From positions 521,001 to 585,000 of the forward strand of contig JAUJYZ010001538.1 in NCBI GenBank assembly GCA_033675265.1: DNA of 64,000 nucleotides, in the 5' to 3' direction. The DNA is from Actinostola sp. cb2023. Lineage: Eukaryota > Cnidaria > Anthozoa > Actiniaria > Actinostolidae. Position 1 is the stretch's first letter. Each line of letters begins with the position of its first letter. The notes below the pieces were generated by a model that was given only the letters and a program-made list of their open reading frames with translations, was not told the origin of the DNA and made no database searches. The position numbers were made by a program, and so were the translations under genes. Positions 11,180 to 64,000 of this stretch are shown in pieces.

Positions 11180-11390
11180 AATAAAATGGGGTTGCGTTTG
11201 ATTCGTTTCTTGTGGGAGAAAGTGGGAATTTGACGAATAAAATATGGGTGCGTTTGACTCGTTTCTTGTGTCCGTGTCGTTATTTTATTTTAGCTCGTTT
11301 GATTCGTTTCTTGTGGGAGAAAGTGGGAATTTGACGAATAAAATAGGGGTGCGTTTGAGTTGTTTCTTGTGTCCGTGTCGTTATTTAGAA
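11180..11390. repeat. Tandem pair of a TTTCTTGTGGGAGAA-containing unit
   Basis: The string GCGTTTGATTCGTTTCTTG with the following GTGGGAATTTGACG occurs twice, and a further partial copy lies right after the LINE at about 13008-13032. The LINE therefore appears to have inserted into this local repeat. Confidence 0.6.
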
Positions 11391-37826: not shown

Positions 37827-38430
37827 TCAGCCTTTTCTTATCTGTGTAGCTTCTGTAGTTGTGACTGACTGGCTTGTTGTTTCAAAAATATGTGTGGAGT
37901 CTTGTGCATTATTCATGTACCAATTTTCTTGAAATGCATCATCTGTTGCTTCACAAATGTTATGCAAAATACAACATGCTGAAATTTTATTTGGTAGATA
38001 TTTCACACTTTTCAGTAGACACCAACATCGGCCTTTTAATCGACCCAGTGTCCCTTCAACCACCATCCTGGCTCTACTCAGCTGAAAATTGAAGTTGATT
38101 TCTTTCTCTGTCAAATTTTCCCTATCAGGGTATCCCTTCGTCATCCAGGGTAAAAGAGGGTAAGCACCATCACCAATAAGCATTATTGGGACATCGACCC
38201 CACACATTTATTTGGTCAACTGAAAAGACCACAAGTAATTTATTATTAGTTTATTTTAAGAGTACAAAGTATGTAATGCAAGAATAGAATAGAAACACTT
38301 TTTATTAGATAAGCACATACATCAGGAAAAAGAGTTTGCTTTTGCCCCTTTGCACACAACCCTGAGTTGTAAAAAAACTCTAGCATCGTGTACTTTACCT
38401 GGCCATTTGATGTTAATGTCATGAACATTC
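37827..38430 (-). pseudogene. Harbinger (HARBI1-like) DDE nuclease C-terminal half
   Basis: On the minus strand, IKWPGKVHDARVF (near 38400) holds the first visible catalytic aspartate context, followed by a frame change and an insertion or intron. Then IMLIGDGAYPLLPWMTKGY gives the second aspartate and SRARMVVEGTLGRLKGRC the glutamate, as in the DDE_Tnp_4 family. The N-terminal half is missing and frames are broken, so it is inactive. The nearby 38532-39783 element has Harbinger-like ends and may be its non-autonomous partner, but shared termini were not shown. Confidence 0.8.
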
Positions 38431-40169: not shown

Positions 40170-41023
40170 AATGTTGTCACTGACTAGAAATTTAATTTGG
40201 ACGTTTCGGTTGATGCTACAACCTTCCTCAGCAGCGATGTTATGACAGGCTATAATAATGTGGATCATTTACATAAACTGTTATATACACAAGGGAAATA
40301 AATATGTTCGTTAATTGAGTTGCATTCACGTATAGAATGCCACGCTTCCAAGAAAAGTCTCTTGCCCCATTGGGGTTCACGATCGATGATCCTGGCGTCT
40401 TCGAAGTTGAATTGGTGGCCCGTTTCAATGTGGTGTTTGGCTAACAAAGAATTGCGGTCAAGTGTGAACACGGCTTTAATATGTTCTTTGATGCGTGTTT
40501 TTAAGGCGCGTGATGTCTGCCCTATGTAGCACTTCTCACAATCTTTGCATCCAATGCGGTAGATGACATCAGTAGTGGCGTCTCTGTCTCCCCTGTCCTT
40601 GGGTTTCTTGAGTATAGCTGAGATAGTGTGTACTGGCTTGTGCACGACTCTTATGTTAAATTTGTTTAAGGTCCTGGTTATTTTTTCTGAAATCCCTTGG
40701 ATGTACGGAAGTACTACGAAACCTCGCCGTTCATGTTGTTCTTGTTGCGGTGATTGTTGGTTGGACTGTTGTTTACTTGGTCTGTAGTTCTGTAGAAAAT
40801 GTGTGGGGTAACCATTTGCATGCAATGCTTTGAAGACGTGCTTTTCCTCTGATGATCTTTCTCTGGGTGTAGAAGGAATATTGTGGGCTCGATAGAGTAG
40901 TGTTTTAGCAACCGCCCGTTTGTGTCCTGAATGGTGGTGCGAATTGAAATCGAGATATCGGTCGGTCAGGTCGTCAATTGGGTACCCTGTGTCAAAACAT
41001 GTCACGACATGTTTTATTCGCAA
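40170..41023 (-). mobile_element. Penelope-like element, 5'-truncated, GIY-YIG endonuclease end
   Basis: The 252-codon frame 41023-40265 ends with a GIY-YIG domain: DVIYRIGCKDCEKCYIGQTS then RIKEHIKAV and HHIETGHQFNFEDARII. This is the C-terminal endonuclease of Penelope-like elements, which follows the reverse transcriptase. The cysteine pair CKDC before the YIG block is also typical. The upstream part resembles the end of the reverse-transcriptase region; the catalytic block is absent, so the copy is 5' truncated. About 35-65 bp after the stop lies a small hammerhead-like motif, as is known for this class. Confidence 0.85.
40200..40231 (-). ncRNA. Small hammerhead ribozyme-like core of the Penelope element
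   Basis: On the minus strand: CTGAGGA (fits CUGANGA), a GGTTG/CAACC stem II with six-base loop, GAAA, then ACGT and C. The palindromic ACGU stem III and C17 match the dimer-forming variants reported for Penelope-like elements. This is the best-conserved core in the window. Confidence 0.6.
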
Positions 41024-41059
41024 TCTATTTCACTGTTTACGGACAATAATCACTTCCAC

Positions 41060-43435: not shown

Positions 43436-44310
43436 CAGTCAAAGATCTGCCTCCAAAGGACTTGAATTTGTAGACAAAATACACACATTTCTTTTGTCAT
43501 GCCACTTAGTGAAAACTACCCTACCTTTTTGCCAAACAACATTCTCGTCGGATTTCAGTTTTGCCTTAGCGCAATTAGGCATTCCCTTCCTGTTGATTCT
43601 TACCGTACCACATGCGAAGGTGTCCTGTACTTCCAGATGCTCTAATAACCTCAATGAACTAAAACAGTTATTGAAAAAAATATGATGCCCCTTATTCATG
43701 AATGGTTGTACTAACCTTGTCACTACATGATATCCCAGTCCGTGTGTCAGGCTTTGTCCTATTTCCCTTCCGAGGTAGGTGTTGAAGTTCAAAACATAGC
43801 CATTGCTCGAGTCGGCGGCCATCCAAACTTTGATGCCATATTGTCGGTTTCGCTGGCATGTACTGTCGAAATGAAAGCCTACCTTTGTATGCGACCATCC
43901 CCTCATTGACGGAAATATTCTTGGAGGGCTGAAAATTATTTAAAAACTTACCTTTGATGTAATCTATGACCGGACGTACCTTGTAAAGACGATCAAAGTT
44001 GGCGGCTTCACAGGACGGTTCTTGAGTGGAGTCGTTGAAATGTAGATAGATTGTTATCTCTTGGAACCTGTTCTTGGTCATTACTTTCTTGATTCCCACA
44101 TTCCCAAAGAAGTCATCTGTACAGCGCAATACTTGGAAGTCGTACCATACCCATGATTATTCGTACACCAAAGTAAGCTTTCATCTCAAGGCGTGTCACT
44201 TTGGTAAACTTGGCGAGACGGTCGGGCGATGTTGTCAATTTCTGTCTTGCGTAACGGTTGGTTTTAGCAACAATCTGGTCCTATAAATCATCTCCAAAGA
44301 AGGCAGAACA
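43436..44310 (-). pseudogene. piggyBac transposase fragment with altered catalytic residues
   Basis: This minus-strand stretch aligns with residues about 104-395 of the intact piggyBac at 54058-55758. It is cut off at both ends and frameshifted near 43850-43900. At the first catalytic position the intact copy has SVDEGMVAYKG and this copy SVNEGMVAYKG; at the second it has FFDNYF versus FFNNCF here. Both aspartates are thus asparagine, each by one G-to-A change. It lies just outside the left end of the 19-kb TNP2/BEN element. Confidence 0.9.
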
Positions 44311-44612: not shown

Positions 44613-45300
44613 CCCATACCAACAATTTTATCCGGGTTTTATATGGGTTATATATGGGCCATATATGGGCCATATATGGAAAATATATGGCACTGTATTT
44701 TTATATGCGGGCCATATATGGGCCCGAATTTTGGAGTCTCCCTGAAATTCAGAAATATATGGGATAAATAAGGCAACAAATACCCATATATGGCCCATAT
44801 ATGGGATATATATGGGCTGAGAATTTCAAAAATTGAAATATGTGGAAAATATGCGGGTTATATGGGCCATATATGGGCCGTATATTCACTGTTAAAATTG
44901 AATATGTGGAAAATATATGGGTAAAATATTTGAGAAATTGAAATATGTGGAAAATATGCAGGTTATATGGGCCATATATTCACTGTTAAAATTGAATATG
45001 TGGAAAATATACGGGTAAAATATTTCAGAAATTGAAAATATGCGGGTTATATGGACCATATATTCACTGTTGAAATTGAATATGTGGAAAATATCCAGGT
45101 AACATCATGGGCATGCAATTATATTGAAGAAATAGAAAACAGGTGTGCAGATCGGGACATTTTAAGGCAAGTTTTCAATTTTGTTCATTACAAAAATATT
45201 GCAGAATACGCATCCTTTGGTCAATCAGAGAGCACATTATATCAGTTATTTTATGAGCCATATTAATTTAAAATTGAAAAATGTGGAAAATATCTGGATT
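44613..45300. repeat. Left subterminal repeat array
   Basis: About eleven ATATATGG copies fall within the first 320 bp, many as CCATATATGG palindromes or GGAAAATATATGG. Longer units with ATGTGGAAAATATGCGGG and ATATTCACTGTTAAAATTGA follow. A small open frame here is repeat-derived. Confidence 0.85.
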
Positions 45301-45427
45301 TAAAAGATGCACTTCCTCTTGTAGCATGCACAAACCTCAAAGCGTGTTTGTATTCAAATAAGTGACGTTTCTACCACGCCCTATACTAATTTCTTACAAA
45401 CCCCTAGTATGACGATAAAACATGGTC

Positions 45428-45805
45428 TCTTGAAGGAATGGTTAACGCTCAGTGTGTGTCCATCGAGTTATGGATGCACGCGGGAGGCTGCTAAGCACGA
45501 GAAGTGTTTAGGGTCACACGAGGCGTTGCCGAGTGAGACTCTACATGTAGTTTCTTGAGTGCTTAATTAGCAGCCAACCAAGCTAAACGTGCATCCATAA
45601 CTCGATGGATGCACAGCTGAAGTGTTGACCATTTCTTTTATAACATAGTTACTATAAATTCAAATTGTCATAGAATTTTATTTTCCAACTGATTTCAGAG
45701 CGCACGCTATGCCAATGACGTGAGTTCATTGAGTTATGGATGCACACTCGCGCGCTAATTAGCCAATCAGAGCACACGTTATATATCAATGCTATGTTAT
45801 AACGT
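45428..45805 (-). repeat. Dispersed repeat family copy 1 (inverse orientation)
   Basis: Contains the self-complementary block GTGCATCCATAACTCGATGG and phrases ACGCGTGC/GCACACGT, TTGGCTAATTA and GCTATGCCAATGACGTGAG. The same blocks in opposite orientation occur at 47902-48200 and 53221-53462. Confidence 0.75.
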
Positions 45806-47901
45806 TTGATAAACTTCACTTATCATATCCACAGATGTATATAAAATCATGTTCTAGCTACTATAATCAGAAATACAAGCTCTGCCACGGTTGTGATCTC
45901 TATTGTGTTTCCCTCGTGAATTATTAATGAATATGATCATTAATTAAGCTAATTCCCTTGTTTTGCATTGCGCACGCTCTACTGCGCACGATTCTGAACT
46001 CGCGTGAGCTCGCGCACATTGGAGACCATCGGAAATCGTTAAATATTGCAAGTGTAACTGAAGTTTTTTCAAAATAAATCGAAAACGAGCACGGTGACCC
46101 CCATTGTTTATTCAATCTTTCATGATACTATAGTTCTTGAGTAAATAGCAAATTAAAGTATTAAAAAGGTAGGATTTCAAACGAAAAAAAAATTGAATGA
46201 AAGCATAGGGAGTATCAATTTTTCGACCATCTCGGTTAGTTCGAACATCTTTCCTTTTTGTTCTATTTTTCGACAACTATTCAAAATTCGAGCATTTCCT
46301 TACTATCAGATAGGCTAGGTATCTGATAGTTAGGTAGGCTAGAGATACAAAAGCTATAGCAAACACTTTAGTTCATTATTAATAGTTTGTCTTTGAAGTT
46401 GTGGAAAATTATTTACCCGATCCCGATGTCACGTGATCGAGACTCGACTGAAAGACCTAAAATACCATAATTTCAAAGCAGTGTAGGCAAAACAAGCACG
46501 GTTACCCCCTCTTTTTATTGCATTTTTTGAAACTCCATACCGTAATGTATCACCATGCCAATTAAGTTATAGAAAATTCTAGGATTTGCTTCTTTTTCAA
46601 GGGAATCACCTTATTAGTGCAGTTATAGAGCACACAAGAACTGCATGATCAGATGATCAGAACATGATATAATTATTGTGTTAGGAGGAAGTACTTTTCA
46701 TTCTCTAATCTTTTTCAAAGTGATTTGGTACCTGAGCAACAAATGCCATATCACTTCCACTGAAATGCATGTATACGCAGATATCAACAATATTTGTAAC
46801 ATCAGTTATAATAAAAGAATCAGATGGAGGATGGCATATTGCCATGTGATTGACTGGATACATATCCACCACATTACAAAAACCAGAGATTAATTGCTTC
46901 AGTTGTCTTCAGCTCCAAAGGGATCACTATGGCACAGGTTCTGCACGGCTCTTGTATTGTGTGGATAAAGGCTTCAACATGACCATAGTAACACTCATTC
47001 AGATGATGGAATACAACTGTAAAGGAGTTGCGTTGTGTAACTCACTTATACAATTTTGAATGGATGACTCTGTCTCCTACTTGTAATCGTGTAAACACTT
47101 TAAATTCCTCAACAGAATCTAGATCCAGACTTAGTAAAACTTCCTCCTGAAGATCAGGTCCCAAAGTTGTCCCAGTTAACAGAGCTCCAATCATGTATAT
47201 GCTACATGTATTTCCAATTAGAGCCTTATTTTCCCTGACAATAAATGTATTAATTAGTTCATCAGTATTGATTATTAATTAGTATTATTATTAAAGTTTG
47301 CACTCAGAGCTTTGACGAGGGTTCAAAGTTAAATGACGTCCCTCGACGAACAATGAAAACCGAGGTGATCGACCATCATGGTATTATTTCACTAAATATA
47401 TTTGTCCAGGTCTGTCTATCTGTGATATCATTAGATGTTGAATGTTTTTTTATAACGTTAATGAGACCCTAAACTTGGAAGAAAATCCATAAAAAATAGA
47501 ATTCATTGTAACTCCGTATTTACAACCTCAAATACTTCAACAATGTCCCTATATTAAATTATTTAAAAAAATTCCATTGGGAAGTACCACTTTTTTACCT
47601 TTGATTTACGGCAGCCATTGTGCTCACTGAATATCGACAGAACTCGGAAAGGAATGGGTCGAGACTGGTAGTGACGTCATGTACTCAACCATAACATTGT
47701 AAAACGTGTCTCGTATGTGTCAAAGTACCTCGAGTGCCGGTTAAAAAAATAATTTTCATTCGTAAAAAGTGTATCTATCTGGCTAAACATGTAATTTCAA
47801 AACTCATAGGACAAAAAAATGGTTATCATAGCTGGAAATTAAAGAGCTTGTTGAAATTAGTAAAAATATACATATGAATTAAAACCTTTGGAAATTTACG
47901 C

Positions 47902-48200
47902 TTATAACATAGCATTGATATAACGCGTGCTCTGATTGGCTAATTAGTGTGCGCTAGCGTGCATCCATAACTCAATGGATACACGCTCACGTCATCGGCA
48001 TAGCGCGCGCTCTGAAATCATTTTATTTGAATTTGCAGTAACTTACCATAAATGGTCAACGCTTCAGTTGTGCGTCCATCGAGTTATGGATGCACTTGGT
48101 CGGCTGCTATTTAGCACTCAAGAAGCTAGAGTCGCACTCGGCCACGCCTCGTGCGACTCTTACACTTCTCTCGATGGACACATGCTGAGCGTTGTCCATT
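47902..48200 (+). repeat. Dispersed repeat family copy 2
   Basis: Starts CTTATAACATAGCATTGATA, shares TCTGATTGGCTAATTA, GCATCCATAACTCAATGGA, CACGTCATCGGCATAGCGCG and TCCATCGAGTTATGGATGCA with copies 1 and 3. Sits between transposase exons. Confidence 0.75.
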
Positions 48201-49172
48201 CCTTAATTGGATGTAACTCTTGCTAACCAACAAAGGTTTTTAATTTCAATATCTTTGCAATTTGTGAAGCGATCTTTTCCAAACTTCACATTTTTACTAC
48301 TTTCAACAGCTCTTTCCAGCTATGATAATATTTTTTTTTGTCCTATGAGTTTTGAAATTACATGATAAAACCTCATTAAAACAGATGCATATTAATAAAC
48401 ACTTACTTTGGTTTTTCATTTCTTAATCGCATAATTAGGTCCCTGGCATGGGTTTCCTCTACCCCATCAATCAGATGTGGGATATTTTGCCTGCATGAAA
48501 CTGCAGTCATTATCTATGATATAAAAGAAATTATAAAGAAAGTAATAATTAATTAATGTTATTAAATAGCTATGATATAACGCACACTCTGATTGTAGCT
48601 AGAGTTCTATGAATTATTGCATGCTCTCATAAACCTCCCACTGACCTGACATCTGATCATGCGCACGCTGTTCGAAACAACACATCACATGCTCATTGGT
48701 TAAAATTGCTATGAACTATTTTCCCATGGGCTGCACGCTCTATAGATGCCATATTATAAATCAATTAGTCAACAATATACACAGCTTATTTGATGATTTG
48801 ACAGATATTACGTACAGATATTTTACGAGTTGTGTAAAAATTGAGTAAAATGTCAAACCATCAAATAAGGGGTTAATTATTATACCACAATTGGTTTTGT
48901 TTCTTTGTTTCATGAAGTTTTTGAGCTAGTTTTATACGTCTTTCATGCTCGTGAGAGCTATTAATTACTATGTGTAATAAATTAGTAGCGTGCGCACTTC
49001 AACTGGAAATGTATTCAAAAACACAACAGAATCCTCAACTTTCTTGTCATGTTTGTCACCATTATAATTGTTCTTTTTTCATCAAAAATCCATAGTTTTG
49101 GTATATCGCAATGTTTTCAACGAGCCCGAGCCGTGGTTTTACACAATAGCCTTCAACTTCTCCCAAACTTCC

Positions 49173-49203
<31 letters not shown>

Positions 49204-49591
49204 GAAACGTTTTCTATGTGTTAATCAGTATCATTTCCATACTACTTGATGAAAACTCAGGCACAAAAATATACAAATACAATAAAATGATTAACATTTT
49301 AACAGTTACCTGCTTAGGAACATTTTGAGTTCCATGGTAGTAGTCTGTGATATCTCCATTCCAATCCTCAAAGACAAAGAGTGACGATGACCAGAGGGGA
49401 CCATGTGCCCTGACACTCTCTACTAAATGTAGCAATAAGTGCTGATTCATCAGCAGGTGGCGAGGTCCTGCAATGACAATAATGATGCCCTTGAGCTTAA
49501 ATTCTTGTTCTAATGCAATTCGATTCAAAAATAAAAAATAATATAAATTGCTGTTTAACATGTCAGTGTTTATAGCAGTACTGCTAGTGCA

Positions 49592-50004
49592 TGGGGACAC
49601 GACTCTCACACTCACTTCTTACTACATTCTGTATATTCTATATACAGCTAATTCAGAAAACGTTGTCGGCGATCGACTTCAAACCTACGCGACTAGACCG
49701 AAAAGGAGTATGGGTAAAAATCAATGAGTCTATAAATACACTATCAAAAAGGAACGTCTCTCACGGAATATGAATCATATCTGCTTCTGTTTCCTTGTTT
49801 TAAAACGCGTAGGCATACATTTACAGATTCACCTGCCATTGTCACCAAATACGAATAGCATGCAAGTGAATTATCATATCTACCCATACTCCCTTTCGGT
49901 CTAGTCGCGTAGGCCTTGAAGTCGATCGCCGACAACGTTTTCTGAATTAGCTGTATACACCTGGCAACACTCATCTCACTAGTTTGTTTTTATTGAGGGA
50001 GGAT
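49592..50004 (-). mobile_element. SINE fragment split by a MITE
   Basis: GGGACACGACTCTCACACTC and CTTACTACATTCT match the SINE body at 23567 onward, then the MITE intervenes, then CACTCATCTCACTAG resumes. The tRNA-like head is missing. Confidence 0.7.
49645..49953. mobile_element. MITE, CAGCTAATTCA family, TATA-flanked
   Basis: CAGCTAATTCAGAAAACGTT and its complement are the ends, with longer arms sharing GTCGGCGATCGACTTCAA. TATA flanks both sides; the uninterrupted SINE at 23.6 kb has a single TATA at this point, confirming the duplication. Confidence 0.8.
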
Positions 50005-50007
50005 TAG

Positions 50008-50352
50008 ACCAAATTGTGAAGAAAACAAACCAAGCGCGCGCGCTCGATGGCATAACTGGCGTCAGTAGCGCGCGCACTTCACTCGCTAAAATGTTATTCA
50101 AAAACAACAGAATCCTCAACTTTCTTGCCATTTTTCTCACCATTCTATATAATAAAGCAAATAGAACAGCTTATTCCGTTCTCCGTTCAGTAATACAGCC
50201 GAGAGCACTCATCAAGAAGTGTGGTCTCCCTATACACTTCTTTCGTGCTCTCGTCACTTCCTTCGTGCTGTTACTGAACGGAGCACGGAATACAGCACGA
50301 AGGAAGTGATGAGAGCACGAAAGAAGTTTGTTTTCTTCACAATTTTGGATCA
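50008..50352. mobile_element. Inverted-repeat element with nested palindromes
   Basis: CAAATTGTGAAGAAAACAAAC and its complement form the ends. Inside, CACGAAGGAAGTGATGAGAG-type palindromes occur. The stretch CCAATCAGAGCGCGCGGATT just after it (about 50420) recurs at about 62520, and the AACAGAATCCTCAACTTTCT block recurs near 49024. Confidence 0.65.
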
Positions 50353-53220
50353 AACCAAACAGCCGAAAAATAGCGTCATCAAACCGTGCTCCATTCTCTG
50401 GTACAGCACAGTTTTCAGCCAATCAGAGCGCGCGGATTGACTTCACTATATAATAAAGCCTATATGGCATCATTTCAGACCTATTAAGCTGTTTGAGCCA
50501 AATATGATACCGTATCATGTGCGTTCTTAAAACATTTGCAGTACTAAGTTAAAATGACAATAAATTACTTCTTACCATAGTAAATATCCACCATCTCCAC
50601 AAAATGAATGAGTAGTTTGGATGCTCTTGTAAGATCTTGTGTAGAGATAGACTCCTTAGTTAAAATAAAAATAGCTCCAACTAACAATGAGTAGTGGCTG
50701 TAATACTCCTCATTGAGCAATCCTCTCATACATGGCAAAGAATAGTAGAACAGCCAACTTCGATATTCTGCAGCTGTAGATTGAAAAAGCGACCATTGAA
50801 ATTACTCTATATTGTGACTGCACTTTACCTGGGATAGGTGACATCTATTATGGGGAATAATATTACTGAAGTGAGCCGTGATCAATTCAGCGGTAATCTA
50901 CAATTAAAACTCAAGTTTCTTCTCCATACAAATAAAAACACATTTATAATGTTGTCCAGCTAAAACGAGATTAACATTGCAATAAATACTGACAATGTCA
51001 CGTGTCTCGATCATCATATATCTGTTTTGCGCATATGAAAAAAAACGCTTGCTATTTGTTAAATAGATATGTTGCATGAAATATCACTGTATTCCAATAG
51101 TCTGCATGATCTGACTGCATGTCATCCTCGGGAACCCAGTGTCTGGGGTATATTCTGCATGCAGACTTCAATTATTGCAGGATTCACATTTTTGATCATC
51201 AAGATATGTAATTTTTGTTACAAACATGTACAATAATTATTGTACATTATATTAAGTATATTATTTTAATGTAGTACAAGTAATTAATACTCATGACAAC
51301 ATTAATTTAAATAATACCTTTCCAGTGTTTTCGGTGAGACTCCAAGCTTCTAGGCACACGATTAATGAAGTTTGGAGGCTTTATTTGCAGCAGTCTGGAA
51401 TCAACTTCACTAATCTTTGATCCACAATACAAAGGCTTGTCAGAGTTTGTACTGTTGAACCATAGTGCAACCAAAGCCTTCACCACACCCAAACATACAG
51501 AATGCATGTAATCAATGGCTACTGATGCTGGTATTTTAAAGCTTGACAACTTCAAAAGTTGGGATGGAGCTTTGAATCCATTCACCTTTTATATCAAAAA
51601 CAGATTATATATAATTATTAATAGAACACTACGGTAGTGGAAGAGGTTTAAAAAAATGGATATGTGATCTTAATGAACATACAATGTCATTATTTCTCCA
51701 AGAATTATGAATGGGTTCAAAATACAGTGCATGACATTGTATATTTCAGTGACATCTCTTAATATATATAAATACATACTTACCTTAGAGTTATTTTCAA
51801 TGGCATCAGAGCAATTTTCAAGGACTGTGTTGTGCTTCTCTTAACTTTTCATGACCAGTTACTGTTTGTCGAAAGGGAAAAGTCATAACATGTCCTCTTT
51901 GTGAAGTTTTCACTACTTCACCCTTTTCCAAACAATAAAGGCAACTGTGGTAACCAGTATATGGCACCTACCAATAAATAGACCAATTAATAATTTTAAC
52001 TTACTATATGCTTACTATATCTGTGATATGTGTGCTATGCATCAATAATTAATTCATACCAGAATAAATACAGCTTATTACATGTAGATGTTTTCTCTGG
52101 TATTATATGCACTAGGCAATTCCAAGAGTGCCCATGCATCCCCCTCACCCCCACATATATAGTGGGAATTTGACGCTGAATAAAGCTCCGACCAGCGGGC
52201 ATTTGACTATTGACCAAATATTGGTCAGCGCGGTCCTCATCTAATTTGCATAGGTGGGGGGGGGGGGGGGGGCTCTTGGAATTGACTAACTAGTGCATTA
52301 CGGGCTAATATTTTACGAGCAACGAGTAAAATGTCAGTCTGTAATACCCAAGAAAACATCTAATAAGGGATTTATTATATAACTGTGACGTAATTTTATC
52401 AAACCAGTTGTGAACAGGGCATATTACTGATTTATACAGCCTGAGCATTAATGCCTCATATTGGCCCTCAAAAATGACCAAATTTGGTAAAACTATGTCA
52501 TAGTTAAATATAATAATACAGTGTATGTGAAGAAATGAATTTAAATTCATCAATGGACTTAGATCATTTATCAACCTGCTCTAGGATATCAGCTCTTGCA
52601 GGTAAATCAAAGTGACCTGACAAAACCATTATATGGCTTGTTTCCTCCTCTCCATTGGCAAATGTCACTGGTATACCTGCAGAAAATAACAATCATGAGG
52701 GTTTTTTTTTTCATGTATGTGAAAAAGGAATTGAGAAATAAAAAAAACCATATAATTCAGAAATCTCTGTGATCTGATTGGCTGTTACCCGGTAATGACG
52801 ATGAGTAAAAATATAATAATGTAAACACATTTGTATTAATATTTAATATATAAAAGAAATATAATAAGTTTATTCTGTGTTTGCAAACACTCAGGGGTTT
52901 GGGAGAACAGAGCTCGACTTTTCCCAAACTCCCCCTTCAGACCTTTGCAAACATGCATTAATTAGCATATTTATATATTTTTAATATATATTTTTAATTA
53001 TTCAGTGATTTGAAAAAGCAGACTCAGCAGCAGCACATTTTATCACAGGCTAATGAGCTACATTTAGCTTGGAGTTCCAGGAACTTGATACCATGCAGAA
53101 CTAATGGGCCTTTCATATACATTTTTGTTATATTTTTTGTTACAATACAATACAATACTTTATTTCAACATGTCAGCTATAAAAAAAACTGTAAAACTGT
53201 AAAACATGTCAAGGAATTAT

Positions 53221-53462
53221 TATAACATAGCATTGATATAACGCGTGCTCTGATTGGCTAATTAACGTGCGCGAGCGTGCATCCATAACTCAATGGACAC
53301 ACACTCACGTCATCGGCATAGCGCGCGCTCTGAAATCAATTGGAAAATAAAATTACTTTATTTGAATTTGCAGTAACTATGTTATAAAAGAAATGGTCAA
53401 CGCTTCAGCTGTGCGTCCATCGAGTTATGGATGCACGCGGGAGGCTGCTAAGCACTCATAGA
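53221..53462 (+). repeat. Dispersed repeat family copy 3
   Basis: Same blocks as copies 1 and 2, ending GGAGGCTGCTAAGCACTCA. It ends about 30 bp short of the 53493 transposase exon border. Confidence 0.75.
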
Positions 53463-53778
53463 GTCGTTCATTGTATCGAGTTATACATGTACCTTGAAGC
53501 TCAGCATAATTAAGTTCTTCTATGAAAGGTGTAAGGAAAGTAGAGAAAAAAGGTTTTTGCTCTCCAAACCACAGACCAGAAAACAGTCGGTACTTTCTTT
53601 GAGTTCTGAAAAGATTAAGATATTGTAACATCAATGAATATAAATAAATAAATTATCATTTGTCCCAGGGTTGTGTTTATGGTTTGAATATTGAACTGAT
53701 TTATTAGTAAATCTAGAAAAATGTAGAAAATGAAAAGATGCATTAAAATGGTTCCTACTATAATAATATTATGTTTAA

Positions 53779-56198
53779 CCCTTTGACACCCACGGCGCCC
53801 GAAACCGCCCGTGCGAAAAACACCCCTGAAATGCCTACGGCGCCCGAAACCGCCCGTAAAAAACGCGCGTCAGAAAAAAATTCGTATCTCCCCTCCACGG
53901 GATTTTTCGTTGTCTTTATTTTGACATCACAAACGTCAATGATTAACCAATCAGATGCCGCCTTTTGCGCATATTTTTTCAGTATAAATAGGGAGAGCAC
54001 GAGGTTTTCAAACCGGCTTAGATGAGCTCGCGCGTTGTCAAAAAGTGACAGTTAATTATGGCAGATTTAGATGGTGATATTTCAGGAGAATTTGAAGATT
54101 CGGGTGATGACAACAGCTTCTACGGTTTTGAAGATGACGAAGAACATTTCAGGCAAGAATCAGACGAATCAGATGTGGATTTCGATGGAATAGAGAGCGA
54201 AGACGAAGACAATCCAGCACCTCCAAGCACCGATTCCGATCCCGAAAATGAAGAAGAAGAAGAACAGTGGACTGACCGACTTACCGATTTCCAGATTCCA
54301 GACTTCCAAATGACCGCCGAAATTAGATTTCCCCTGCCAGCAGTTCCGAAAGAAATTGACTTCTTTTCTGCCTTCTTTGGAGATGATTTATGGGACCAGA
54401 TTGTCGCTGAAACCAACCGATACGCAAGACAGAAATTGACAACGGCGCCCGACCGTCTCGCCAAGTTTACCGAAGTGACACGCCTGGAGATGAAAGCTTA
54501 CTTTGGTGTACGAATAATCATGGGTATGGTACGACTTCCAAGTATTGCCGCCTACTGGTGTACAGATGACTTCTTTGGGAATGTGGGAATCAAGAAAGTA
54601 ATGACCAAGAACAGATTCCAAGAGATAACAAGCTATCTACACTTCAACGACTCCACTCAAGAACCGCCCCGTGAAGCTGCCACCTTTGATCGTCTTTACA
54701 AGGTACGTCCGGTCATAGATTACATCAAAGGTAAGTTTTTAAATAATTTTCAGCCCTCCAAGAATATTTCCGTTGATGAGGGAATGGTCGCATACAAAGG
54801 TAGGCTTTCTTTTCGACAGTACATGCCAGCGAAACCGACGAAATATGGCATCAAAGTTTGGATGGCCGCCGACTCGAGCAATGGCTATGTTTTGAACTTC
54901 AACACCTACCTCGGAAGGGAAATAGGACAAAGCCTGACACACGGACTGGGATATCATGTAGTGACAAGGTTAGTACAACCATTCATGAATAAGGGGCATC
55001 ATATTTTTTTCGATAACTATTTTAGTTCATTGAGGTTATTAGAGCATCTGGAAGTACAGGACACCTTCGCATGTGGTACGGTAAGAATCAACAGGAAGGG
55101 AATGCCTAATTGCGCTAAGGCAAAACTGAAACCCGGCGAGAAGGTTGTACGGCAAAAAGGTAGGTTAGTTTTCACTAAGTGGCATGACAAAAGAGATGTG
55201 TGTATTTTGTCTACAAATTCCAGTCCTTTGGAGGCAGATCTGGTAGCTCAACGACGTGGGCGTCAAGACATCGCAAAGCCGGCCGTTGTAGGTTTGTACA
55301 ATTCACACATGGGAGGTGTTGATCTTAGCGATCAATTTCGTAAGTATTATTCAATTGGACGGTCATCTTACAAGTGGTACAGGTATTTGTTTTGGTATAT
55401 GGTTGACGTTAGTATCTGTAATTCCTTTATTTTGTTTAATCATTTGAAGGTAAGTAATGGGGAAGCTAGATTAAAACAGGTAAGTTTCAGGACTAGTCTT
55501 GCGAAGCAGTTGATTGCCGGGTTTTCAGTTGAGGGTGCGAGTAAGCGCAAGAAGATCGACTCCCTTTCACTCGATCCAGAGAATGCAGGTAAGCACTTCG
55601 TTGTCAAGATCAAGGGCAGGAAAAGAGGATGTGTGCAGTGTAAAAAGAATGGCAGTACAACCCCCAAAGGACGAACCATCGAGTCAACTTTCGAGTGCCT
55701 GCAATGTGGAGTGGCCCTGTGCAAGATGGACTGTTTTCGCGACTACCACCAAGGCTGAGCTGCTGTCACTCCGAGATCTTCATATTCTCTTCTGCAAATA
55801 TTAAGAACTTGAAATACATTACTTTACAACACTTCTCCTTCAATTTGGCTTGATTTTGAAACCATTTGGCCTTTATTTGGCTTAATTTTGTTGATTTGTT
55901 TGGCTCTGTTTTGTGCGCGTTTGAATTCCATTTTGACGCACCAATCGCAAAAAAAATATTTTTTATACTTTTGGCTTCTTGTTTTTGGCCATTTTAATCA
56001 CTTTTGGCAGAAATTTTGGCATATTTAGGCCTTTCATTTATCCCTTTCGACAATAAAATTTGTTTGGATTTGATATCTTGTGTCTGTATTTACTGCGCAT
56101 ATGGTTTATATCCACGTGTCATATTTCTTAATGATTTTGCGAAAAACACCCAGGGAGAGGGGACCTGTCGCGCGTTAAAGTTCCCGGGTGTCAAAGGG
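53779..56198 (+). mobile_element. Complete piggyBac transposon, 2,420 bp
   Basis: TTAA at 53775-53778 and 56199-56202 flanks the element. The terminal inverted repeats are CCCTTTGACACCC and its exact complement GGGTGTCAAAGGG. A subterminal direct repeat CGGCGCCCGAAACCGCCCGT occurs twice at the left (53793 and 53841). One intact transposase ORF fills the centre. It sits in an intron of the TNP2-like gene, transcribed opposite to it. Confidence 0.97.
54058..55758 (+). CDS. piggyBac transposase, intact
   Basis: This 566-codon ORF has the full piggyBac layout: an acidic N-terminus (residues 1-75, many Asp/Glu), the DDE_Tnp_1_7 domain (about 95-460), and a Cys-rich C-terminal finger (CVQCKKNG...CLQCGVALC, about 524-566). 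The catalytic aspartates are in NISVDEGMVAYKG (about residue 242), HHIFFDNYFSS (about 320) and MGGVDLSDQF (about 423). The enzyme excises at TTAA without footprint in the nucleus, and both termini here are complete. Length matches active family members. No stop or frameshift is present. The start at 54058 gives MADLDGDISGEF and is preceded by a TATA-like AGTATAAATAG near 53980. Together with the perfect ends this copy is a candidate autonomous element. Confidence 0.96.
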   Translation: MADLDGDISGEFEDSGDDNSFYGFEDDEEHFRQESDESDVDFDGIESEDEDNPAPPSTDSDPENEEEEEQWTDRLTDFQIPDFQMTAEIRFPLPAVPKEIDFFSAFFGDDLWDQIVAETNRYARQKLTTAPDRLAKFTEVTRLEMKAYFGVRIIMGMVRLPSIAAYWCTDDFFGNVGIKKVMTKNRFQEITSYLHFNDSTQEPPREAATFDRLYKVRPVIDYIKGKFLNNFQPSKNISVDEGMVAYKGRLSFRQYMPAKPTKYGIKVWMAADSSNGYVLNFNTYLGREIGQSLTHGLGYHVVTRLVQPFMNKGHHIFFDNYFSSLRLLEHLEVQDTFACGTVRINRKGMPNCAKAKLKPGEKVVRQKGRLVFTKWHDKRDVCILSTNSSPLEADLVAQRRGRQDIAKPAVVGLYNSHMGGVDLSDQFRKYYSIGRSSYKWYRYLFWYMVDVSICNSFILFNHLKVSNGEARLKQVSFRTSLAKQLIAGFSVEGASKRKKIDSLSLDPENAGKHFVVKIKGRKRGCVQCKKNGSTTPKGRTIESTFECLQCGVALCKMDCFRDYHQG

Positions 56199-56490
56199 TT
56201 AATATATAAATTATTGTCATTTTCTTTTAGGACCTTAGTGATCTAGGCATCCTCATTAAAGATTATTATTGTTGACCCAGCTGGGGCATTTTGATCAAAT
56301 TAGACTTATTTTCTTTTGACTTATTTTATATTTATATAATAAAGGGTGGGGTATTTGAACAAAAATCCTCAAAAAAAATCCTCAAAAAAGGTCAACTAAA
56401 CATTGATACTCATGCACACATTAGTTAAAAATGTTGGAACATGTGAACGTATAAACTGAAGCTACATTGTACATGTACATTGTACGACTA

Positions 56491-56712
56491 AAGCCACGGC
56501 TACACGAGCGATTTTTTGCTTGCACAGGCGACGCGATTTTTTTAGGAAATCGAAAATTGCTAGTTCAATTCTGATTTTAATGAGTTATATAAACCGGAAA
56601 TCAGAAATTGAAATGATAATTATCAACAAAAATTAAAAACGGTGATACGGCAGTTTTTCAAAAAAATCGCGTCGCCTGTGCAAGCAAAATATCGCTCGTG
56701 TAGCCGCGGCTT
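56491..56712. mobile_element. MITE with AGCCACGGCTACACGAGCG ends
   Basis: AGCCACGGCTACACGAGCG and its near complement, with longer arms sharing GCGACGCGATTTTTTT. Flanks TAA/TTAA-like. Located between the piggyBac and the 57182 transposase exon. Confidence 0.75.
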
Positions 56713-57639
56713 AAGAAACTAGCCCTAACAACAATTGTATGGCTTTCACAGTAAGATTCAGGTCAAATTAGCGGAGTTACGAACTGGAATTATGTCCCTG
56801 ACTAATTTCCGGTTATAATATTTACATTTTAAAAATTGAATTGCAACATCACAATTGTTACAAATACAAAGTATCTAGTACAAGTGTTCCGACCTGTAAA
56901 GCTGCAGTAATAATACATTGTAAGGGTTTATATTTCTAAATTACCTTAACTTCGGTGGTAACTCATTTATGGCGAAAAACAGTGGCCACACTGAAAAGTT
57001 GGATGATTTAAAAAGCGAAACACCATCTGTGTTTAACTTCAGCGATAAATTCAGAGGATTGTGTAGGAATTCTCCAGGTTTAAAATATTCTTCGTATAAA
57101 GAACCATGAATGGTGTCCCCAATGACTCCAGGTTCGGTGTCGATTTGAAATCTATAATCGATTGCAGAAACAAATTCGGGATCTGAAATGAAATTGAAAG
57201 AAGATACAGAATCTCAGAGGTTTAGTTTCACAACTGAAAGAAGCATAAGGATGCTGGAATTTAAACTTAATCGGGCGTTTTCGTACAGTTTTTGGTTTCC
57301 TTCGGGAGTAACTTCCTCGTCGCTATCTTCGCTGCTTGTATCATGGTCGAAATTCTCGTCGTCACTTTCACTTTCACTTTCTGCTTGATCTTGTTCTAAT
57401 GTTGCATGCAGTACCATTTCTTCATGATCCGCATCAGATTGAAGAGGATCTTCCACCAACGACGTATCGCTCTGGTGATCTACAGTACTTGACGACTCCT
57501 GAACCTCATCAATATTTGTAACAGGTTTTGTTTTAAGTTTTTTCCTCACACACCTACGTGCGGAAGCGGCAGATAAAGGCGTATCATGCCGTAAATATGT
57601 GCGGTAACTACTTTTACGAGCACGTCCTTCCGCCATCAT

Positions 57640-57956
57640 GCTGAGATCGATAGTGAGAAGCAGAAACGGACCAGTACACTTTTTGTTTGAATCGTAGTAG
57701 TCATGGTATCGTCATGGTAATGTATGTTTGAATCATAGTAGTCATGGTATCGTCATGGTAATGTATGTTTGAATCGTAGTAGTCATGGTATCGTCATGGT
57801 AATGTATGTTTGAATCGTAGTAGTCATGGTAATGTATGGTTACCATAGAGAATGTCATTCATCTGTCATCTGAAAACTGCTAAAATGCAATGCAAGCTCA
57901 AGGACGGCCTCTTTCTCCGAGTGGCGTCGTGCGTGCAAGATCGACCAGAAAGAATC
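57640..57956. promoter_or_regulatory. Divergent promoter with 41-bp tandem repeats
   Basis: The spacer between the two start codons is 317 bp. It contains a 41-bp unit starting GTTTGAATCGTAGTAG at 57685, 57726, 57767 and 57808 (last one shortened), each with TCATGGTATCGTCATGGTAA. Such a repeat in a shared promoter could be a binding array that co-regulates both genes; that is inference. Confidence 0.6.
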
Positions 57957-60026
57957 ATGAATGCAACTACTAGCGAGGCAATGGCAGAGAGGACTAAGCG
58001 GGCGGTTACGAAGAGAAAAAGAATTGGAGAAGGTAAGATATTAGAAACTATCACTACTGTAAGTAATGCGGAGGAGTACAAGTATGCTCAGCAGTGCCCG
58101 AGTGCATGCTGTGCGCGCACAAGTACGTTCTTTCTTTTGGAGTCATTTTCTCTATCCTTTTTCCTAAAAACTACGTAAACATTCCATTTAAAAGTAGCTT
58201 ATTTATTATGAAGAACGAATTAGGACCCACTGAATGTCTTTTTTCCTTAATTCGTCCAAACAATTTACCATTTCACCCATCGTATCTTTTCACTTTTCAA
58301 ATTTCGCACGTCGACTGAAAAATGAAAATTATTTTTGGCTTCAAACTTTCGTTTCTGATCTTTACGGATTGATTTCGAAATTCTTAGTCCATGTGGATGT
58401 GTTTTTGATTTCACATTGAATGATTTTAAGATCAATACAGTGTTTAAAATCTGTTTTATCTCCGGACAAAGGTATTTTCTTACCAAAGCAAGAGGCAAAA
58501 CTGAAACGCCGGGAAAGCAACAAATTTTCTGAAAAAGGAGAAAATAGTTTCTTTTCGATTTTTTGCTGAAAGAAGACTTTCTTCCTTTGAAACAAGCATT
58601 TGATCAGTACTAAAAATATCATTATATTATCTTAGAACTGTCAAGGAAAAATATTTTTAGTCAATTTTGAGTTGAAATACGCGCGGTGTTCACAAATGTA
58701 AAATTTTGAATTGGTAAAGAGGGGGGAGGGGACGGGAAATTATTCTGTTTTTCCAAAACTCGGCAAAAGTAAGGAAATCATTTCAAAACCAATAGGAAAC
58801 TAAGACAACACACAAATTACCAGAGAGAAAACACATTTATAAACTGAAGAACAAACGAAAACCCATAGATACAATCGAAGCGATCTCAATATATTAAAGC
58901 TTACATAATTTTTCTACGAATTAGCTTATTTTAAAACAAAACTGATCAAACAATCTTAATCGAAAATGGATATTTCGTTTATGGAAAAATGTAGCCGACC
59001 CGAATACCCGATCTATCTTGCAATTCGTGTTTTGACGAGTTCATGCGTTGTTTTTTCTTTTTAAGTTCTTAAAATCGGCTGAAATTATTAAGCTTACTGA
59101 AGCTCGAATTGAAATTATCCAACGTCTAGTAAGTTCTGAGACTGTAGCTGAATCAACTGAAATGGATGTTCGGCAGATTACAAAAACATGAAACTATCTA
59201 TGTTAGTAATTACCTGTTATAGAGGAATATAGCACCAGTATGTCGTAAGTTTACATATAGCTTTAATATGCTAGATGTCAGTATGCAATGAAGAAATGCA
59301 GTTCATCAAATTCAAAACCAGCGATTTGTTTCCTTCCAAATATCCAGATCTTGCATCATGTAGCTTTTCACTTGAATTGTTAATCCTTTAGGATATTTAA
59401 ACGCAGTTGAAGAGTTTTGACAAGTATATAAGCGCGGAATTTAGAATGTAGTCCACCAAGAACAAGATTGGTGAAACTGCAAGTATGCTTGTTTTTCTTG
59501 TGTGTGTGCGCATGACAGAAATCCTGTACGTAAAGCGGAAGTAAAAGTACATTTTTCCGGAAATGTATTTCCTATAGTGTAGGTTCCTCGTGTAAAGAAG
59601 CATAAAGATTCAGAAATGAGAAATTCCATGTCTTACATCTGTTTTAAGGACTTATTTGCTTGTTTAATAGTGTGTTTGTATATTTGTTTCATTGTCCAAA
59701 AAACTATACATATATATGTCTGTCTGTCCGTCCGTCCGTCCACCTGTATTTTTATTCATCATTTTTTATATTTTTCTCTTTTAACAGAAATGTGTTACCT
59801 TGTACGCTTCGAGAGCGATGGATTACTTGAAGTGCTTGTGGGCGAGCAGTCTGTTCGCCCATTTGATCATTGTGAAGATTTGGAAGATGAGTTTCTGTAT
59901 GATGGATTACTGCGAAGCGCTCTGGGAGCCAGATGGAAAATATTACGAAGCACAAATTCTAGAAATTAGCGGTAATCAACGACATTTTATGCAATGACAT
60001 TATTATTATTGTTATTGTTGTTATTA

Positions 60027-60064
<38 letters not shown>

Positions 60065-62837
60065 GATCCTGATATTCAAGTATATTTGCTTTTTAAACTC
60101 AGATGACAAGGACGATCTATTGAAAAAGAAACAACAAAAGAAAAAACAAAAAGCTGATGATCACAAGGAAGAAGACAAAGAACAGGAAGACGACAAACGA
60201 CCAGAACGACCCGCGACAACAAAAAAGGAACAGAAAAAAGAAAAGCTGAGCCAGATTAAAACGATGGCTGCTGTGCGGAAAGCACAGTCCGCAATAAACC
60301 TGCAGCAATACGAACTGGACGTCTCACAGCAACAACGACAACCACTACAACAACAACAACCACAACGACGACGACCACAACAGGAACAACGACCACAACA
60401 GGAACAACGACCACAACAGGAACGACCACAACAGAAACAACGACCACAACAGAAACAACAACGACAACAACAGCAACAACGACCACAACAGGAACAACAA
60501 CCACAACAGCAACAACGACCACAACAGGAACAACAACCACAACAGCAACAACCACAACAGAAACATCAACGACAACAACAACGACCACAACAGGAACAAC
60601 GACCACAACAACAACAACGACCACAACAACAACGACCCCAACAACGACAACAACAACAACAGCAACAACAACAGCCACAACAAGTACCTCCACAAGCTAC
60701 TAGCAGCGACGACGAAGATCAGCCGGCATGCTCAAACAAAGCATGCCAGGATGTGTACACTGTGTACACAACTTTGAAACAAAAATATGTAAAACTACAA
60801 AAGCGACTGGACGCTGTCAGTAAGTATTTTTATCAATATCACAACTTTCACACTTCACAATTAATCATTTACTCTTCTTTCTTAACAGTCAAGTCTAAAA
60901 CCCCGGTCGATGAGGCCAACACCCCAAAATCAGGGATTCTCGATCCCCAAGTTGCTGAATCATACCAGGTAAAAATGATGTTATCTCGAAATATTTTAGA
61001 TTGATGACGTGTAATTAGTATCTATCTTTTTCTACCCGGCAACACAGTAGTGCGCGCGCTAAGTATTTGAATTTACGCGCGCACACAGCTATGTATAGTT
61101 CAACGCATTATATTTTTAGCGAACTGAGGAGGTTGAGAAAACGAAACTAGTTTTCGCTAAGGTAAGTTAATAAATTAAGTGCGTATACTATGACATGTAA
61201 TTAGTAGGAATTCGAAAAAAGAACTGAAAAAAATATATACCTTTCCAAATACGACTGTACGTCAGTTGAGCTCAGTTGTCGCTTTCAAAGCAACAATCGT
61301 CAAGTCAAGACTGAAATGTTCAACTTTATCAAATATTACAATTTTACAACATTTGTCAAATTTCTCGTACGCTGATTGGATAAGGACTGAGACGCATATA
61401 GAATGACGTTTCGCTCGCGCACGGAACCAGCGCGCACTTGAATCAGTTTTTCTTGCAAATCTATTTGTCGTTTTGGGAGTCTTTTCGAATTCCGCTTTCC
61501 TGAGTAAAGGCCCAGACACACGGTGCAACTTTTCTTGCAATGTTGCGCGCAACAGTTGCAGAAGTAGGATCGAGTTCTACTACTACAACCGTTGCGCGCA
61601 ACGTTGCATCGTGTGACACCCAAAAAAAAGTCGCTTTTTGCTTATTTCCACACATGTATGAACATGTATATATAATATACCAATCAGCGTGCAAATACAC
61701 AGGTGAATGCAAAAAAAAAAAAAAAACAAGCGCAAGAAGGTACGCAAAAGACCATACATTGAAAATCGTACTCTAATTGTTTTCCACTACACTTAAACAG
61801 CTTTAGACAATATAATTTATTCCTTCCTTACTTTTTGTTCTAGATGAAAGAAGTTGTACAAGGCACCAACATTTTTTGGCACCAGGGCCAGAAATTAATG
61901 GCAAACTCAGCTGGCTCCTGGAAGGAGTACTTGTCAGTATTCCTCGACATCTTCTTCGGCAAAACAATACTTGCAAAGTCTTGTGCCAAGGGCACATTTG
62001 CGGGAAGAAGGAGAACCGACACTGTGCCTCTCCCACCAGCTATTTTGAACACTATAATAGGTGAGTTTATCAATAATAATTGTTTTTATCTTGAGCGATC
62101 TTGAGATTTCTGTTTTGCAGGTTGCAAAACTTTGTTACGTAAAGTACAAGCTCTTTCTACTTCATGCAACAAAGTTTGCAACCTGCAACAAATGACCGAA
62201 AATTTAATTTGTTGCGCGACAAGTTGCGCGAACGATGGTAATACGTGAAACATTGCTCTGCAACTTGCAACGCAACAATGTTGCGCGACAATAGTTGCAC
62301 GATTTTGTTGCTCGTATTACCGCACCTTTATGCCATCGCGCACGCTGGGTTTGTTTTCTTCAGAGATATGATACGAGTCGATTTCGTGTGATTGTGAAAA
62401 ATCACGGCGCACGACACGGCACGGATATAAAGTTTTTCACAGTCATACGAAATCTACTCAGATTGCTTTTTCGTCAGTGTCTACAACTCAAAACCATCTG
62501 TAATTTGTTAAATTTTCAGCCAATCAGAGCGCGCGGATTGACTTCACTATACAAAAATAACAAACAATTATAACTTACACCGTGATGACATTCTAAACTT
62601 ACATTTTCAGCTAAAGTCTGCCAACGTTTCAAAGATGTGGGGCCTTCTCAGATAATCATGAAGGTTAACCAAAAGTGCAGCGAAGCACGAAGGCCACCAA
62701 GAATGAGGTGCCCTGTACCTTCAACTGGCACTTCCACATCCACTTCCACTGAAGCATCTACAGTACTAGGTTGCGATACTGACCTAGCTAACGACTCCGA
62801 CTCCGACTCCGACGATAATGAAAGCTTCCAAGTGTAG
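57957..62837 (+). CDS. BEN-domain protein, seven exons, Gln-rich
   Basis: Exons 57957-58032, 59788-59971, 60103-60819, 60889-60968, 61120-61161, 61844-62060, 62611-62837. Every junction is GT/AG and phases agree. Removing one base in exon 2 (near 59900, where the frame of CYLVRFESDGLLEVL must switch to that of CEALWEPDGKYYEAQIL) gives exactly 513 codons. Residues about 162-283 are almost only Gln/Pro/Arg. A CX4C-like CSNKACQDVYT precedes a short coiled coil. The BEN domain spans exons 6-7 (SWKEYLSVFLDIFFGKTILA, then PLPPAILNTIIAKVCQRF). The tail is Ser/Thr/Asp-rich. BEN domains bind DNA or chromatin proteins in the nucleus. Here the gene is divergent from a TNP2-like transposase within one inverted-repeat unit, so it may be the element's DNA-binding protein. 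An alternative is a host gene. Confidence 0.8.
61508..61621. repeat. Short inverted repeat in BEN intron 5
   Basis: AGGCCCAGACACACGGTGCA at the left and TGCATCGTGTGACACCC at the right are imperfect inverted ends, and GTTGCGCGCAAC occurs in both arms. MITE-like. Confidence 0.6.
62105..62335. repeat. GTTGC-rich inverted repeat in BEN intron 6
   Basis: GCAGGTTGCAAAACTTTGTT and AACAAAGTTTGCAACCTGC pair, and TTGTTGCGCGACAAGTTGCG is related to the intron-5 repeat. Followed by the dispersed CCAATCAGAGCGCGCGGATT block. Confidence 0.6.
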
Positions 62838-63029
62838 TTAATTACGTTTTTACAGCTCAGCAGCCTACTTTTATGTATGCTATACTTTACTGGCTTTTAT
62901 ATTGGCCAATTGATTCCCATGTATTACGCAAAGAAAATTAAAATGTTATCATTGTGGACGAACAAATTGAAGCATTGATATGGGTAGGGTATAATAGGGC
63001 TTATATATAAATGACAACAAATATATGCA

Positions 63030-63751
63030 ACCATCATGTTTATACTTTTTTCCTATAAATTTCTTATATTTTCCATATTTATTCCGTATTTGTTTCCTAT
63101 AAATTTCTTATATTTGCCATATTTATTCCGTATTTTTTTCCTATAAATTTCTTATATTTTCCGTATTTATTCCTCATTTTTTTCCTATAAATTTTTTATA
63201 TTTTCCGTATTTATTCCGCATTTTTTCCTATACATTTCTTATTTTTTACGTATTTATTCCATATTTTTTCCCTATAAATTCCTTATATTTTCCGTATTTA
63301 TTCCGTATATTTTCCGTATTTCACTCAAATCAATGCCTTATATTATTCATATATATACCGCATTTTTGTCAGATAAATTCCTTATTTATCCATTATTTTC
63401 CCAGATATAATCCACATTTTTTTATTTCCATTTACCCGCATTTTTTCCATATTTGACTTTTAAATCAATATGCGGGCCGCATATTTTCCATATAAAAAAT
63501 ATATGGAAAATATCTGGAATTCGACCAAATCCGGATTTTTTCCATATATTTACGTATATTTTCCATATATTTTCCATATATCCGATATATGGATTATATG
63601 TGGCCCATATTTTTTCCATATAAAAACCTTGAAATACGGATTAAAACTGGCCATATAAATTCCATATATTACCCGGATATTTTCCATATATAATTCCATA
63701 TATTTTCCGCATTTGGCCCATATATGGCCCGTATAAATATTTTGGTATGGG
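63030..63751. repeat. Right subterminal repeat array
   Basis: A 44-bp tandem unit (CCTATAAATTTCTTATATTT at 63052, 63096, 63140, 63184, 63227) grades into CCATATAT-rich sequence (at least eight copies at 63480-63730) and the terminus GGTATGGG. Read inward it gives GGAAAATATATGG and AAATGCGG, mirroring the left array. Confidence 0.88.
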
Positions 63752-64000
63752 TCTTCCGCGCCTTCAAAGGTGCAACAGTTCCCAATACAAACATGGCAGA
63801 GGTAGGCCACTCGCGAAATGCAACAAGGGGTGCCAAAAACCAATCACTGGCAACATTGTGGAATGTGCCCTCCTTAAATCGAAACTACAAATGTATGAGA
63901 ATGGTACATAGGAGGTTCGAAACTACAAATGTATGAGAATGGTACATAGAGGAGGTCACTGCCAAACTCAATAGCAAAAGGAAACAACAACATTTAGTTT
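63752..64000. repeat. Flank with a 38-bp tandem pair
   Basis: CGAAACTACAAATGTATGAG with the following GGTACATAG occurs at about 63880 and 63918. No gene recognised in this last segment; an open frame (63724-63936) is unrecognised. Confidence 0.5.

Follow-up and report, generated by a model that had tools for sequence, protein, structure and literature searches.

We report a DNA transposon spanning positions 44613-63751 of a 64,000-nucleotide stretch from the actiniarian Actinostola sp. cb2023 (assembly GCA_033675265.1, contig JAUJYZ010001538.1, positions 521,001 to 585,000 of the forward strand; hereafter the window). The copy seen there is decayed, with frame breaks in both of its genes. Judged by its sequence features, the element is of the animal TRC type, which is related to the CACTA transposons. 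What is new in it is a separate, divergently transcribed gene for a BEN-like protein beside the gene for a TNP2-like transposase, and this second gene is a candidate for the TNPA counterpart of animal TRC elements. We consider it probable that the window holds the remains of a TRC-type cut-and-paste transposon that encoded, in divergently transcribed genes, a TNP2/Transposase_21 transposase and a BEN-like DNA-binding protein, the latter presumably binding the subterminal arrays in the manner of TNPA.

Termini, target sites and copies of the family

The two ends of the element are inverted copies of each other: CCCATACCAACAATTTTATCCGGG, starting at 44613, agrees with the reversed CCCATACCAAAATATTTATACGGG, ending at 63751, at 20 of 24 bases (the probability of 20 or more matches by chance is 3e-9 for one fixed pair of termini), and TC flanks both. 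A repeat finder likewise paired the 56-bp terminal arms with each other as inverted repeats of 73% complementarity. These inverted repeats have CCC at the termini, and CCCATACC stands where plant En/Spm elements have the CACTA core. Next to the termini lie arrays rich in ATATGG/CCATAT: the left end has 23 occurrences in 518 bp and the right end 15 in 312 bp, compared with a background of 0.47 per kb in the window minus 44613-45200 and 62901-64000. The preliminary description of this DNA had drawn matching termini between TC flanks, mirror-image motif-rich arrays and two divergent genes placed head to head between the ends; direct reading of the termini, the motif counts and the exons agree with it on each of these points, including the order of the genes.

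To place the element in its genomic context we searched the genome (424 Mb in 1594 contigs; C numbers below denote contigs, C874 being the window locus) with the left 288 bases as the left-end query. Only the best candidates were scored, and the counts are accordingly lower bounds. Among the 134 matches listed, 32 begin no more than 5 bases from the terminus. With a both-ended locus taken as left and right matches in matching orientation no more than 25 kb apart, the search for other copies with the same terminus, to which the preliminary description had pointed, recovered at least 19 such loci in the genome. The longest are C465 (22.1 kb), the window (19.1 kb), C643 (13.0 kb), C998 (8.1 kb), C1206 (5.5 kb) and C243 (4.8 kb); four are of 3.7-3.8 kb (C313, C274, C1310 and C333), seven of 2.1-2.4 kb (C846, C205, C1164, C498, C454, C86 and C1494), and the shortest are C986 (0.9 kb) and C943 (0.4 kb). 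One end match of each of C998, C243 and C333 begins 15-68 bases inside the terminus.

Termini were inspected in nine both-ended copies, two of which (C643 and C986) each miss one terminus, leaving seven that are readable. Six of the seven display a 2-bp target duplication, namely TC in the window, CT in C465, TT in C274, TA in C313, CT in C205 and AT in C333, each terminus of the last being one base off CCCATACC. The duplication is thus of 2 bp here, and the 3-bp target duplication of plant En/Spm was not seen. The C313 copy, which is non-autonomous and 3.8 kb in length, is inserted within an array of a 57-bp satellite. The joints of the unfilled satellite units read CATACTACTGC in 21 of 28 cases and show the C313 target; the filled site reads CATACTA, then the element, then TACTGC. 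Comparison of the filled site with the unfilled units therefore fixes both the ends and the 2-bp duplication, this being the kind of alignment of ends with empty sites that the preliminary description had asked for. On the evidence of these target sites, the family has moved in the past.

Recurrence of the gene pair

Two of the at least 19 both-ended loci, the window and C465, are 19 kb or more in length, and the TNP2-like and BEN-like genes lie head to head between the ends in both, an arrangement that the preliminary description had proposed to look for. The remaining 17 span 0.4-13 kb and are therefore not full-length copies missing a gene. When searched with both window proteins, six of these (C274, C313, C1310, C205, C643 and C986) were found to have neither gene and C333 to have BEN exons only; the other ten short loci gave no BEN match and no TNP2 of the same clade among the matches listed in the genome searches. 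C643 retains both arrays, with a right end that is without its last bases and other sequences inside, and C920 and C526, which have a left end with no right end found, carry neither gene. We infer that the 0.4-13-kb copies would use the proteins in trans to move.

C465 combines CCCATACC termini and its CT duplication with both genes in the same order as in the window. Its exons are open, and those borders that were checked follow the GT-AG rule; their identity to the window exons is 49-89% for TNP2, falling to 35% at the variable N-terminus, and 26-59% for BEN. The pair also recurs in the same order at three further loci, C264, C252 and C771, for none of which more than one terminus was found: C264 has BEN exons and a TNP2 gene in which some 725 bp missing from the window copy are present; C252 has three TNP2 exon matches and a BEN gene behind a left end; and C771 carries a third, more diverged pair (41-73% against the window TNP2 exons and 39-49% against those of BEN). 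These loci, with C465 repeating ends, genes and order, uphold the earlier proposal of one element with two genes. As a separate observation, the right half of the C264 copy and its flank have been duplicated in tandem (C264:88900-98899), with an identical 12 bases after both right ends.

The clade of this TNP2, taken as matches of at least 60% in the core search or those found by the C-terminal search, comprises at least 11 loci (C874, C264, C135, C330, C465, C808, C771, C310, C1441 and two on C252), of which that on C310 is truncated at the edge of its contig. At five of these at least 11 loci (C874, C264, C465, C771 and C252) a BEN gene is found head to head within 20 kb, whereas 0.015 pairs within that distance would be expected by chance (P 5e-12, a simple Poisson estimate). 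The BEN-like gene as a chance neighbor was accordingly rejected. The 24 BEN matches of the genome search fall into 14 BEN loci, and at six of them (C874, C264 twice by duplication, C465, C252:83188 and C333) a right terminus lies 0.4-3.1 kb beyond BEN in the expected orientation. By eye, there is no BEN match within 20 kb of the listed members of other TNP2 families (22-49% identity; at least 158 core-search matches).

The coding sequences point in the same direction. Between C264 and C465 the proportions of nonsynonymous (pN) and synonymous (pS) differences are 0.172 and 0.687 in TNP2 (657 codons; ratio of nonsynonymous to synonymous rates, dN/dS, 0.11), and 0.345 and 0.799 in BEN (231 codons), two of the five BEN exons on the C264 side having been taken from its duplicated copy. 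C264 and C252 are less far apart, and dN/dS for them is 0.22 in BEN (208 codons) and 0.25 in TNP2 (117 codons); close pairs involving the decayed window copy give 0.42 for TNP2 and 0.25-0.53 for BEN. With pN well below pS in both genes, selection therefore maintained both proteins over the divergence of the lineages. Separately, between the close copies (window, C264 and C252) synonymous change in BEN is several-fold above that in TNP2, as in 0.131 versus 0.018 for C264 and the window; this excess may stem from uneven exon alignment or from recombination.

The two proteins and the case against

The hand-spliced minus-strand exons of the window matched the Pfam Transposase_21 (tnp2) model with an E-value of 4.8e-11 and the C465 counterpart with 9.1e-9, both above the curated cut-off. 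The window copy of TNP2 has frame breaks and one stop. We found 28 relatives of the protein, the named sources being Clytia, Saccostrea and Stylophora, with the closest 62% identical. One intron of the gene contains a piggyBac element with a DDE_Tnp_1_7 transposase (E-value 4e-99). In C264 the corresponding site is unoccupied and has a single TTAA, and for this reason the piggyBac lies outside the ancestral element and its open reading frame (ORF) was rejected as a component.

The BEN-like protein, whose reading frame is broken in exon 2 of the window copy, contains a weakly Tudor-like second exon (E-value 0.049), a glutamine-rich linker and a C-terminal domain. Searched as a single sequence against PDB chains, this domain gave two NACC1 chains as its best structure matches (E-values 2e-4 and 6e-4). 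A profile built from four copies recovered the NACC1 chains 7bv9 (E-value 8.1e-8) and 8yzs (1.4e-7) with positions 3-103 of 106 aligned, followed by an ANKS1B chain at 0.005, while the reversed sequence reached a best E-value of 1.2. We take the matched chains to be the BEN domain of NACC1, a host BTB protein, whereas here the domain lies inside a transposon. A paper by Dai et al. (2013), as listed by title in the references of PMC5704228, describes the BEN domain as a sequence-specific DNA-binding domain.

Several observations weigh against the reading of the window copy as one of a family of two-gene elements with a BEN partner. Firstly, the Pfam BEN model found no match to the domain alone up to an E-value of 10 or to the whole protein up to 1, and protein searches with the domain turned up no relative. 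We therefore name the domain BEN-like: it is similar to NACC1 across its whole length and does not match the family model. Secondly, C1310, the seventh readable copy, is flanked by CC and GG with no target duplication. Thirdly, each pair beyond the window and C465 is imperfect: C264 has lost its left terminus and has a TNP2 exon that reads in two frames; C252 has no right end within 20 kb; and C771, of which neither terminus was read, has a stop in one BEN exon and, past the BEN gene, an extra TNP2 fragment on the opposite strand. Fourthly, TNP2 lacks a BEN match nearby at C808, C330, C1441 and C252:159331 (a 65-residue match), the BEN exon at C135 has the reverse of the expected orientation, and 7 of the 14 BEN loci (C1575, C1162, C252:17676, C252:83188, C455, C333 and C979) have no TNP2 match of the same clade nearby among the matches listed; loss or decay would account for these unpaired BEN loci. 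Finally, synonymous change between the lineages is saturated or nearly so.

Known relatives and the proposed role of the BEN-like protein

Animal TRC elements, described in 2006, are characterized by a Transposase_21 or CACTA-type transposase, CCC termini and a 2-bp duplication, all of which recur here; they include SmTRC1 of Schistosoma mansoni, elements of Tribolium and Aedes, and Spongebob/EnSpm-4N1 of Hydra, for which CCC and 2 bp are likewise given (PMC1636069, PMC4298943). The reported cases measure 4.5-9.2 kb, as against 19 kb for the window element (PMC1636069, PMC4298943). SmTRC1 is described as making, from one alternatively spliced transcription unit, extra proteins without known relatives, and its authors held that the second protein, of unknown ancestry, must bind DNA and that experimental verification was warranted (PMC1636069). 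The window element, unlike SmTRC1, has a separate divergent BEN-like gene and long palindromic subterminal arrays. The TNPA-like DNA-binding role in animal elements is now directly testable, because this second gene resembles a known DNA-binding family, diverged copies have retained it, and the arrays on either side of it have the look of binding sites.

Plant CACTA elements, such as En/Spm and the 20.5-kb soybean Tgmt*, share with the window element tnp2, great length and asymmetric subterminal repeats, and differ in their CACTA termini and, for Tgmt*, a 3-base duplication; in maize En/Spm, TNPA recognizes the subterminal repeats, and TNPA and TNPD are both required (PMC2613891). The parts corresponding to such a second DNA-binding product and its repeats would here be the candidate gene and the arrays. 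TNPA comes from the same gene as the transposase and is, to our knowledge, not known as a BEN protein. VANDAL elements with VANC also have a second element-borne protein acting on clusters of short motifs, and differ in their Mutator-type transposase, their plant hosts and a protein unrelated to the BEN-like one. The preliminary description knew of no animal element built in this way, which holds for the pairing of TNP2 with BEN and not for the TRC type, already described (PMC1636069). We found no TNP2 and BEN element in the literature on BEN and transposons or on SmTRC1, subscription journals and Repbase being outside the search; in the accessible part of a paper that joins the BEN domain and CACTA, BEN occurs only in a reference title (PMC5704228).

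By analogy with TNPA, we infer that the BEN-like protein binds the ATATGG/CCATAT arrays. TNP2 would presumably cleave at the CCC termini, and the BEN-like protein would read the palindromic subterminal arrays and, once bound there, would join the ends or counteract silencing, like TNPA in maize En/Spm. The pair has been kept side by side in diverged copies, and it is therefore suggested that the second protein aids movement or escape from silencing. It is less likely, though plausible, that the BEN-like protein is a regulator and not part of the machinery, binding the arrays so as to repress or de-silence the promoters of the element, on the model of VANC in VANDAL elements or of the demethylating activity of TNPA. 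The glutamine-rich linker and the weak Tudor-like match would suit a chromatin factor and are compatible with a role in chromatin or de-silencing, and TNPA is itself described as reactivating a methylated promoter and repressing an unmethylated one (PMC1636069); no observation separates the regulatory from the machinery role, and both may hold.

A single capture of a host gene, with BEN then carried as a passenger useless to the element, appears quite unlikely. The gene is absent from the short both-ended copies, and several loci have BEN without TNP2 or TNP2 without BEN, but the ordered pair persists even where BEN exons share 26-59% identity, and pN stays well under pS. The both-ended copies are mostly short, and the ones inspected share mainly their ends with the window, yet it is highly improbable that the termini are those of a non-autonomous family with genes of other origin nested or neighboring, since C465 repeats ends, genes and order at exon identities of 35-89% (TNP2) and 26-59% (BEN) and at 6 of 14 BEN loci a right terminus follows the gene at a distance of 0.4-3.1 kb; an origin of the termini from two unrelated elements was hence rejected. 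Returning to a TNPA-like partner, we tentatively raise the broader possibility that animal TRC/CACTA elements recruited a BEN protein as an obligate array-reading partner, that the pair is old and that BEN genes carried by such elements may have seeded some animal BEN genes.

Table 1. Coordinates of the transposon and its parts in the window
Feature	Position	Strand	Remarks
Left terminus	44613..44636	+	Starts CCCATACC; 20/24 matching right terminus; TC precedes
Left subterminal array	44639..45130	+	ATATGG/CCATAT-rich, with palindrome CCATATATGG and GGAAAATAT; homologous arrays at other left ends
TNP2-like transposase gene	46708..57639	-	Transposase_21, E 4.8e-11; hand-set exon borders; GT-AG checked on C465 counterpart
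TNP2 exons (approximate)	57639-57226, 57177-56944, 53610-53488, 52677-52573, 51967-51780	-	Set by hand
TNP2 exons, continued (approximate)	51588-51319, 50774-50570, 49486-49310, 48510-48405, 47236-46708	-	Set by hand
Nested piggyBac element	53779..56198	+	Transposase ORF 54049-55758; terminal inverted repeat CCCTTTGACACCC; TTAA on both sides
BEN-like gene	57957..62837	+	Hand-set exons; BEN-like domain across last two exons, intron between
BEN-like gene exons (approximate)	57957-58032, 59788-59971, 60103-60819, 60889-60968	+	Set by hand
BEN-like gene exons, continued (approximate)	61120-61161, 61844-62060, 62611-62837	+	Set by hand
Right subterminal array	62960..63727	-	Mirror-image motifs CCATAT and TATTTTCC; homologous arrays at other loci
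Right terminus	63728..63751	-	Ends ...TTTTGGTATGGG; then TC

Elsewhere in the window, 1093-6051 (+) holds pieces of a Pao-type retrotransposon, with Peptidase_A17 (E-value 5e-52), RVT_1 and an integrase zinc-binding domain in 2346-5412. Additionally, there are a reverse transcriptase ORF (11389-12370), a DDE_Tnp_4 fragment (37827-38207), a GIY-YIG ORF that may be Penelope-like (40265-41029) and a broken second piggyBac of the nested family (43439-44156). A DUF6589-like ORF at 29231-30325 (+; E-value 4e-5, below the cut-off) is found near a RecQ-like helicase ORF at 34656-35334 (-), and ORFs resembling this pair stand together on C920 behind a left end of the transposon family. Their co-occurrence in the window and on C920, the latter by the look of the ORFs, suggests another mobile gene pair.

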